Below are positions 46,992 to 49,588 of a stretch of 64,000 nt of DNA, piece after piece. Both the position numbers and the translations under genes were made by a program. Numbering within the stretch: position 1 is the first letter of the stretch; each line of letters begins with the position of its first letter. The notes below the pieces were generated by a model that did not search any database, was not told the DNA's origin, and worked only from the letters and a program-made list of their open reading frames with translations. Origin of the DNA: Planctomycetota bacterium (GTDB lineage Bacteria; Planctomycetota; UBA1135; JACQFD01). The stretch is taken from contig JAEUHX010000042.1 of the NCBI GenBank assembly GCA_016792805.1, forward strand, positions 1 to 64,000, in the 5' to 3' direction.

Positions 46992-47025
46992 TTCTGACCT
47001 TTCAGGATTCTTTGAAAGTTCAGAA
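46992..47025. promoter_or_regulatory. Imperfect palindrome upstream of the GbsR-type gene (candidate operator)
   Basis: TTCTGACCTTTCA (46992-47004) and TGAAAGTTCAGAA (47013-47025) form an inverted repeat matching at 12 of 13 positions, with an eight-base spacer. It ends 20 bases before the regulator's ATG, between divergent genes, and is clearly more AT-rich than the surroundings. MarR/GbsR-type dimers commonly bind such sites in their own promoters, so it is the natural candidate for autoregulation of the operon. Binding is inferred. Confidence 0.65.
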
Positions 47026-47045: not shown

Positions 47046-47660
47046 ATGGCTCGAACACCGCGAGAGAACCCAAAGCCGGCCCCCCGCGACAGCGGCAAGG
47101 AGCCCGCGGAGGAAGGCTCCTTGGAGGAGATCCGCGGTGAATTCGTGCAGCTCTGGGGGCGCATGGCGCCCTTCTGGGGCATCTCGCCGAGTGAGGGGCG
47201 CGTCTATGGGTGGCTTCTTTCCCGCAGCGCGCCCGTCGACGCCGAGGAGATCGCGGCCGGGCTGCAGATGAGCCGCGGTGCCGTGAGCATGGCATGCACG
47301 GAGCTGGGCCATTGGGGAATTGTAGTGTCCGAGCGCGAGCCCGGCGGCCGCCGGCTTCTGTATCGAGCGGAGACGAATCTCGAGAAGGCGATTCGCAGCA
47401 TCATCACGACGCGGAAGCGGCGCGAGTGGGACCCGATCCTGGAGCACTTGCGAGAGTGGATTCCGAAGCTCGATGCGCAGCGGTCGAAGGACGCCGGCGA
47501 GTTTCGCGAGAGGCTGCAGTCGATCGAGTCGCTCGTCGCGATGGCCGACTCCATGGCGGAAGTGTTTCTGAAAGGAGGCATGGTTCGCCAGCTCGGTCTG
47601 AAAGTTTTGGTTTCGGCGGCGAGCGTCTTCGCCCGCTCCGCCTCGCGAGGTTCCCGGTGA
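47046..47660 (+). CDS. GbsR/MarR-type transcriptional regulator
   Basis: The 204-aa product carries a winged helix-turn-helix of the GbsR type: EIRGEFVQLWGRMAPFWGISPSEGRVYGWLL (about 27-57), then the recognition region VDAEEIAAGLQMSRGAVSMACTELGHWGIV (about 64-93) and a wing (SEREPGGRRLLYRAE). A helical, basic C-terminal half (IRSIITTRKRREWDPILEHLREW...) probably dimerises. GbsR proteins are best known for controlling osmoprotectant or choline genes, but related ones control unrelated membrane genes. It heads an operon with three small membrane-protein genes (GTGA overlap with the first) and has a palindrome in its promoter. Confidence 0.88.
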   Translation: MARTPRENPKPAPRDSGKEPAEEGSLEEIRGEFVQLWGRMAPFWGISPSEGRVYGWLLSRSAPVDAEEIAAGLQMSRGAVSMACTELGHWGIVVSEREPGGRRLLYRAETNLEKAIRSIITTRKRREWDPILEHLREWIPKLDAQRSKDAGEFRERLQSIESLVAMADSMAEVFLKGGMVRQLGLKVLVSAASVFARSASRGSR

Positions 47661-48040
47661 GCGCCGGTGCCGGCTGGTTCTTTGTGGGATTGGCCGGCCC
47701 CATGGTGCTTGCGCTCGCGGCGCGCTTCGTGCTCGGGAGGAGCTTGCGGGAGTTTCTCACAGAGGTCTGCCGCGGAGACCGCCGCGGCGCGTTCTGGTCC
47801 GATGTATTTACTCTCGGAATGTTGACGTCGGCACCGTTCGCCGCGTCTCTCCACGATGGGCTGCTACTGATGTCGGAGCCGAGCCGCGTGGAGGTCGCTT
47901 CCTCTGTTGCGCTTCAGTGGTTTCTTGGAGTGAGCGGCATCGCCGCCTCGCTCGCGATTCAGGCATTTTCACTGTACTTCTTCTTGGAGCGCGTGCGGTG
48001 CGATGACCCGCCGCCGGCGCGCCCGCTCGGAGGTTCTTAG
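47657..48040 (+). CDS. Three-helix membrane protein 1 of a paralogous trio
   Basis: Starts at GTG 47657, overlapping the regulator's stop (GTGA), and is 127 aa. It has three membrane segments (about 5-27, 48-66 and 88-112) with a short charged stretch between the first and second: L34, E36, R43, F46 and W47 in FLTEVCRGDRRGAFW. The same residues at the same positions occur in the next gene. The C-terminus (RCDDPPPARPLGGS) is likely cytoplasmic. No enzyme, transport or channel family is recognised. Confidence 0.75.
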   Translation: MSAGAGWFFVGLAGPMVLALAARFVLGRSLREFLTEVCRGDRRGAFWSDVFTLGMLTSAPFAASLHDGLLLMSEPSRVEVASSVALQWFLGVSGIAASLAIQAFSLYFFLERVRCDDPPPARPLGGS

Positions 48041-48042
48041 CC

Positions 48043-48429
48043 ATGGCGTCCGTCACGCTCGCTTGGGGTTTCGGTGCACTTCTGGCCGCGCTGCTCTCCG
48101 CGCTGGTCATGCTGCTTCTTCGCCGCCACATGCCGGCGGTGCTGACGGAGCTCGGCGGAAGCCAGCCTCGGGCGCACTTCTGGGCCGCGGTGCTCTCGCT
48201 CTGCGTGCTTCTCCTCGGGCTGTTCGCAGGAACCGGACCTTACAATATTGCTGAGATCGCGAAGGAAGGGGAAGATCGCCTCTTCTTTGAGCTGGTCTCG
48301 CAGGTGCGCTGGGCACTGGGCGGTCTTTTTGTATCGGTTCTGGTGGTCTCGATGCTTGTGATGCGACTGGTCTCCCGGCACGAGGAAGCGTTGAAGTACG
48401 CGAAGTCGCCGCCGCTGATTCCGCGCTGA
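48043..48429 (+). CDS. Three-helix membrane protein 2 of a paralogous trio
   Basis: Starts two bases after the previous stop; 128 aa. The layout copies that of the previous gene: membrane segment (about 5-27), charged motif with L34, E36, R43, F46 and W47 (VLTELGGSQPRAHFW), second segment (LSLCVLLLGLFAG), an extracytoplasmic acidic loop (NIAEIAKEGEDRLFFE), third segment (LGGLFVSVLVVSMLVM) and a short basic tail. Function unknown. Confidence 0.75.
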   Translation: MASVTLAWGFGALLAALLSALVMLLLRRHMPAVLTELGGSQPRAHFWAAVLSLCVLLLGLFAGTGPYNIAEIAKEGEDRLFFELVSQVRWALGGLFVSVLVVSMLVMRLVSRHEEALKYAKSPPLIPR

Positions 48430-48437
48430 GCGCTGCG

Positions 48438-48899
48438 ATGAGTCGCGAGTTTTCGGCGCCGGAAGGATTCGTCCTTTTGGCTGCGCTGGCGAATTTATTG
48501 CTCATTGCGGCGGTGACGGTGATTCCCGCACTTCGAAGTCTTTTGTGTGAGCTTGCGGGCACTCCAAGTCGGGGACAGTTCTGGACGCGGCTGACGGCCC
48601 TCTCAGCGGCAGCCGCGGTGCTCGCCGCTGCGCTCCTAGGATTTGTTCTCATGCAGCCTGGGTATCTGGAGCGGCTTTGCAATGCGATGCCGATTCGGAT
48701 CTACAGTGCAGAGCAGTTCGGGAAGCTATTGCTTCTCTTGGGATACTCGGCGGAAACGGCAAGCACCTCTTCGACGATGGTATTGTCGGCGGCGCTTCGT
48801 CTCGGGATCCTGGCGTTGGGAGCCTCGGCGGTCATTGTGCTCTGGGCCGCCACCCGAAGCCGGACTTGGCTCTTTGGACGCGGCGCTCCACCGCGGTGA
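48438..48899 (+). CDS. Three-helix membrane protein 3 of a paralogous trio
   Basis: Starts eight bases after the previous stop; 153 aa. The membrane segment (about 10-30) is followed by LLCELAGTPSRGQFW, which carries the trio motif two residues later (E38, R45, F48, W49). A second segment (LSAAAAVLAAALLGFVL), a longer loop (about 75-115, with PGYLERLCNAMPIRIYSAEQFG) and a third segment (LGILALGASAVIVLWAA) follow. Function unknown. The gap downstream holds palindrome cluster 3. Confidence 0.75.
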   Translation: MSREFSAPEGFVLLAALANLLLIAAVTVIPALRSLLCELAGTPSRGQFWTRLTALSAAAAVLAAALLGFVLMQPGYLERLCNAMPIRIYSAEQFGKLLLLLGYSAETASTSSTMVLSAALRLGILALGASAVIVLWAATRSRTWLFGRGAPPR

Positions 48900-49588
48900 T
48901 GTGTGCGGCTGGAGACTTGTAAGCATGGATGAACGGGGCGTGGTCGGTTTTGGCGTGGCAGCGGACAGTCCAGGAGGCCATTCCAGGATTCCTCCGAGCT
49001 GCGCGCGGGCCTCGACGGCAGGACGATCGACAATGGCGGTTCGTGCATGTGAGGTTCCTCTCGATCGATAAGTGGGATCGATAAGTGGTGTGGATAGGTG
49101 GTGTCGATAAGTGGTGTCGGCGCGTGCGCCGACCCTACGAGTCGGTTTCTGTGCACACCCAGACCGACCCACGCCCCATTCCAAGCCGTCGCGTATCTGT
49201 GAAGTCGTAGGGCGTGGGCATCGCCCGCGACGATTCGGCGGCGCATGCGCCGCCGGATGAAGCATCGCGCTGCAGATTCGTCATCGCGCGGGGCACGCCC
49301 CGCAGAGACCGATCGGCGCGTGTTTGCGAACCCGAGTAGAGAAGTGGAGTCGGCGCGTGTCTGCTAACCCTTGTAGATAAGTGGGGTCGGCGCGCGCGCC
49401 GACCGGTTCTCGCGCGCGTGCGCGCGAGGATGAGGAGGGGTGTAAACGATTCCTCATCGCGCGGGGCAAGCCCCGCGCCATTGTTCGGCGCGAGCGCCGA
49501 CCCTACGTGTCGACCTGACATGTGTGGCTTCGCGCCCGTCGGATTCTGCGCGCGCCATGGCATCTCGGCTGCGGAACGCGCCGAGATG
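48900..49588. repeat. Palindrome cluster 3 between convergent genes
   Basis: This 690-bp gap between the trio and the convergent HAD gene holds short tandem GATAAGTGGTGTC-like units (about 49061-49115), hairpins such as GTCGGCGC-GT-GCGCCGAC (49116-49133) and GCGCGGGGC-AA-GCCCCGCGC near 49460-49480, and the 44-nt module at 49162-49205. A hairpin GCATCTCGGC/GCCGAGATGC at 49560-49589 touches the HAD stop codon and may help terminate that gene. No coding sequence is supported. Confidence 0.85.
49162..49205 (+). repeat. 44-nt module, copy 3
   Basis: Begins GACCGACCCACGCCCCATTC and ends TATCTGTGAAGT. Same orientation as copy 1, opposite to copy 2. Confidence 0.8.

Follow-up and report, generated by a model that had tools for sequence, protein, structure and literature searches.

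A gene for a GbsR/MarR-type regulator followed closely by three small genes for membrane proteins, here called MP1, MP2 and MP3, lies in the 64,000-nucleotide stretch of a Planctomycetota genome analysed in this work (the window). The locus raises the question of whether the three proteins belong to one family, how they are controlled, and what they might form in the membrane. The best overall explanation, in which our confidence is evenly balanced, is a CydE-type self-repressed operon whose new cargo probably forms a hetero-oligomeric complex in the membrane.

The operon and its three membrane proteins

The original prediction described a gene for a GbsR-type regulator and three membrane-protein genes in close succession (47046-48899), and the positions, overlap and gaps of all four were confirmed (Table 1). 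Codon-position GC is compatible with coding in all four genes, MP3 being the weakest case. The packing bears out a co-transcribed layout, but it does not imply that the three products are made in fixed proportion, as had also been suggested. A promoter scan did not find a canonical sigma-70 promoter. Between the operon and the gene that follows it, short GC-rich repeats and palindromes are clustered (49054-49514), with GATAAGTGG units at 13-bp spacing and TCGGCGCGTGCGCCGACC elements, several of them inverted.

Table 1. Features of the operon in the window, with counterparts in the genome of another family (G116).
Feature	Position	Strand	Remarks
Candidate operator, perfect palindrome CTTTCA-GGATTCTT-TGAAAG then TTCA	46999..47018	+	27 bp 5' of regulator start codon
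GbsR/MarR-family regulator, CydE-like, 204 aa	47046..47660	+	50-57% identity to regulators heading homologous loci
MP1, three-helix membrane protein, 127 aa	47657..48040	+	GTG start inside GTGA, overlaps regulator stop
MP2, three-helix membrane protein, 128 aa	48043..48429	+	2-bp gap after MP1; G116 counterpart L080:5165-5572(-)
MP3, three-helix membrane protein, longer second loop, 153 aa	48438..48899	+	8-bp gap after MP2; G116 counterpart L080:4800-5141(-)

The proposed paralogy of MP1, MP2 and MP3 is hardly visible by pairwise alignment: direct BLASTP of MP1 against MP2, which are 18% identical, gave E=0.033, and comparison of MP3 with either gave nothing meaningful. A profile made of nine homologues, none of them from the window, recognised all three, scoring MP1 at 43.5, MP2 at 70.5 and MP3 at 22.6 bits. 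When each protein was shuffled 2000 times with hydrophobicity classes preserved, the best scores against the same profile were 16.6, 21.4 and 13.4 bits, respectively, and no shuffle reached the real score (0/2000 each). The paralogy is thus borne out, and the shared profile, motif and topology make MP1-MP3 one homologous three-helix family. For a lineage-specific triplication, the AU test gave p 0.066 on a weakly supported tree with long branches.

The motif residues lie where they had been placed, at L34, E36, R43, F46 and W47 in MP1 and MP2 and at L36, E38, R45, F48 and W49 in MP3, with a constant E-to-R spacing. Across the family the motif reads L-x-[E/D]-x6-R-x2-F-W, in which L, R, F and W are invariant, together with one glycine in TM3; two members have D at the acidic position. 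Its retention in homologues is what the claim of paralogy had demanded. AlphaFold2 models agree with the predicted three-helix topology, with helices at 3-38, 41-70 and 77-113 in MP1 (pLDDT 87) and at 8-40, 43-71 and 111-145, plus short loop helices, in MP3 (pLDDT 76). Because the motif spans the tight TM1-TM2 turn in these models, its likely role is a structural one, capping the hairpin, and not that of an active site. The only conserved acid is located at this turn, and the family alignment revealed no conserved histidine, cysteine or buried charge pointing to a redox or transport site. The N terminus probably faces outwards, with the TM1-TM2 turn and the C terminus in the cytoplasm.

No match to MP1-MP3 was found above cut-off in Pfam or NCBIfam, nor any match in PHROG or PADLOC, and Foldseek against the PDB returned no match at E<=0.001, a PDB profile search likewise giving no relative. 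These structure searches, by profile and by fold, offer no functional relative, and the statement that no named system has this make-up stands for the membrane proteins. Furthermore, no description of a regulator with three such membrane proteins was found in the published literature.

The regulator and its candidate operator

The window regulator can be assigned to the GbsR family, MarR-type winged-helix regulators that have a C-terminal helical dimerisation region and are homologous to Mj223: profile A4 matches Mj223 (1ku9) at 2e-14 over positions 4-144. It thereby belongs to the same protein family (MarR superfamily, Mj223-like) as GbsR, OpcR and OpuAR of Bacillus, which regulate choline and osmoprotectant genes (PMC6207618, PMC7396694). 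In contrast to these, it falls far below the choline cut-off of the CudC model (6.6e-9, 35.8 bits against 218 bits, which is below the equivalog cut-off) and has no osmoprotectant genes alongside; a choline-type GbsR was rejected on these grounds. The operator differs too: that of B. subtilis GbsR lies downstream of the start site, with 4 bp between its half-sites, whereas those of the window are N8 apart.

For the regulator and its operator, unlike the membrane proteins, the claim of an unnamed system did not hold, since they are of the known kind of CydE/CioR-type GbsR autorepressors of cytochrome bd operons, exemplified by CydE-cydAB of Alishewanella and CioR-cioAB of Chromobacterium (PMC6096048, PMC11837568). 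Common to these and the window operon are a GbsR-type repressor as the first gene, autorepression (proposed in the window) and a membrane-protein cargo. The difference lies in the cargo: behind the window regulator there are no cytochrome bd genes, and MP1-MP3, three small three-helix proteins unrelated to CydAB, stand there instead.

The palindrome CTTTCA-N8-TGAAAG before the regulator gene is a new observation of this analysis, and it is the only 12/12 match both in the 64-kb window and in the 5.74-Mb genome. CydE of Alishewanella represses its own cytochrome bd operon and gives the DNase footprint TATTTCAGAAATTTCTGAAAGTTCA (PMC6096048), with which the window palindrome agrees in half-sites and spacing. 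The window operon matches the CydE operator TTTCA-N8-TGAAAGTTCA at 15 of 15 informative positions, and the next best site elsewhere in the 64 kb reaches 11/15. Upstream of regulator loci in three phyla the palindrome recurs as TTTCA-N8-TGAAA, the form that also precedes the window regulator, usually about 25-50 bp before the start. Scores of at least 10/12 were obtained at 20 of 46 regulator loci and at none of 920 shuffled upstreams; most loci without the palindrome fall in one group of close Acidobacteriota relatives. Comparison sequence of about 200 kb had sites scoring at least 11 at members of this gene family and nowhere else. The best plasmid matches of the window regulator (38% over 105 aa) are the gbsR genes heading cydD-cydC-cydA clusters in Rhizobium, and these clusters have the same palindrome about 22 bp upstream of gbsR. 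Nine genomic sites with one mismatch were considered as a wider regulon and look like chance, because they are mostly inside predicted genes and a reversed-pattern control gives four.

Control of the operon by its own regulator, as had been proposed, is therefore supported by a candidate operator. With its conservation, its match to the CydE footprint and the Rhizobium sites, no other part of the mechanism is as well supported as autorepression by a regulator of the CydE type, and we consider it likely that the operon is self-repressed, the binding of DNA being predicted from the palindrome.

The same regulator subfamily and, in several loci, the same operator are found in Acidobacteriota, in which the regulators of the L095 type are 47-56% identical to the L081 query. 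There, and in one Myxococcota record, the regulator gene overlaps a polyprenyl synthetase gene, and UbiE/MenG comes next in several Acidobacteriota loci. The cargo differs from that of the window, consisting of quinone/isoprenoid enzymes, and no three-helix gene was found at the Acidobacteriota and Myxococcota regulator loci. This arrangement was observed at L095, L096, L099, L106, L108 and their relatives, part of which carry TTTCA-N8-TGAAA upstream; their regulator is a possible regulator of quinone synthesis.

Distribution and possible co-assembly

Searches of related genomes with MP1 and MP2 yielded two relatives, a clear one in G004 and a weak one in G063, for which the regulator and the motif gave confirmation. 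A five-row profile then added seven more proteins. In all, the family has 12 members, which come from 9 of the 154 genomes searched in one planctomycete order. In an even draw of 294 genomes across the phylum it occurred only in the window's own genome; a single-protein search of an 85,000-genome collection with MP1 gave no match, and no relative of MP2 was found on plasmids. The regulator subfamily is present in 11 of the 154 genomes, seven of which also hold the membrane family (hypergeometric p 3e-8, kinship ignored); it occurs without the family in the other four and at all Acidobacteriota loci seen.

Neighbours of the membrane genes differ between genomes. At four loci (L062, L077, L081 and L082) the regulator adjoins a single membrane protein. 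At L078 and L079 the regulator and a membrane protein lie within one same-strand gene run that includes a TIGR01777-type epimerase, recognised by Pfam Epimerase and DUF1731 in L079 and by sequence similarity in L078; the L079 run also holds a DUF2071 protein and a DCC1-like oxidoreductase. In both, a large gene resembling a molybdopterin oxidoreductase precedes the run in the same orientation. Membrane proteins without an adjoining regulator occur at L061 and L080; G004 and G116 have such unaccompanied membrane proteins, and G004 also lacks the operator.

The pair in G116, a genome of another family, bears on whether the proteins assemble together. Its two membrane genes are in tandem in the order of MP2 and MP3, and upstream of them an 11/12 operator follows a terminator-like hairpin. 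The first, L080a, and MP2 are reciprocal best matches (37% identity, BLASTP 6e-11), as are the second, L080b, and MP3 (33% identity, BLASTP 3e-4), whereas the cross comparisons with the non-partner give E values of 0.3-0.5. Between this operator and the pair there is an open frame of 53 aa with one predicted helix (L080:5627-5788, minus strand), which starts where the operator ends and finishes with R-Y-E, as TM3 does in several members of the family. This frame may represent the first protein of a trio in reduced form.

That the MP2 and MP3 subtypes have stayed side by side, with their order unchanged and the same operator before them, gives indirect support to the hetero-oligomer that the original prediction had postulated, as it is how a conserved hetero-pair would look. 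The trio itself is not obligatory, because most homologous loci hold only one such membrane protein, and at those loci homo-oligomers suffice. Judged from sequence, co-assembly of MP1-MP3 into a hetero-oligomeric membrane complex has about an even chance of being correct.

Proposed function and rival explanations

In the proposed mechanism, a CydE-like GbsR homodimer would bind the palindrome just upstream of its own gene and block transcription of that gene and the three behind it, until an intracellular signal releases it; the position of the promoter and the releasing signal are what we infer. The three homologous three-helix proteins would then be made together and most likely assemble as a hetero-oligomeric membrane complex, in which the conserved E/D-R-F-W motif would cap the TM1-TM2 hairpin and TM3 would bear the conserved glycine. 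The likeliest setting would be stress acting on the part of the membrane concerned with respiration or quinones, since in other phyla regulators of this type control cytochrome bd or adjoin polyprenyl synthetase and UbiE/MenG. The window genome (91% complete) gave no match to PF01654, cytochrome bd subunit I, so the respiratory link comes from the regulator's kin alone. By this analogy we regard a role in respiration or with quinones as plausible, though less likely than not. The fuller proposal, that MP2 and MP3 form, together with MP1, an undescribed hetero-oligomeric membrane complex associated with respiration or quinones that has replaced cytochrome bd under a CydE-type repressor, the operator being kept and the cargo swapped, is on the unlikely side.

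The same self-repressed operon could instead encode diverged duplicates, each forming its own homo-oligomer and acting in parallel. The four loci in which a regulator adjoins a single membrane protein fit this possibility, as does the low identity of MP1 and MP2, which may have drifted to separate roles; the adjacent MP2-like and MP3-like genes of G116 count against it, and we hold it possible, but clearly less probable than a hetero-oligomer. A different arrangement would be a two-part sensing module in which the membrane protein senses the state of the membrane or of quinone and controls the repressor, for example by sequestering it, so that the operon is a sensor and not an effector. Several loci consist of the operator, regulator and membrane protein unit alone, and the window genome has no second perfect operator, which leaves the membrane proteins as the only evident target. 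However, membrane proteins without an adjoining regulator at L061 and L080, the regulators that occur without membrane proteins, and the response of GbsR relatives themselves to soluble ligands or metals make such a module improbable.

Short hydrophobic paralogues behind a MarR-superfamily repressor are a common exporter layout, which would suit two or three small exporter proteins of the multidrug type controlled by a ligand-sensing repressor. Such exporters have four helices and a conserved membrane glutamate, whereas the family has three helices, no membrane-embedded conserved acidic residue (its conserved acid being that of the TM1-TM2 turn) and no match to an exporter family in Pfam or NCBIfam; this candidate was rejected as very improbable.

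The CydE-type self-repressed operon with a new cargo thus remains the preferred reading. An unnamed family of small membrane proteins is now defined and linked to a class of regulators for which an operator has been footprinted by experiment. Planctomycetota, Acidobacteriota, Myxococcota and proteobacteria share the operator-repressor pair but differ in the genes under its control, and this changing cargo under one repressor-operator pair offers a clue to the signal that CydE-type regulators perceive.
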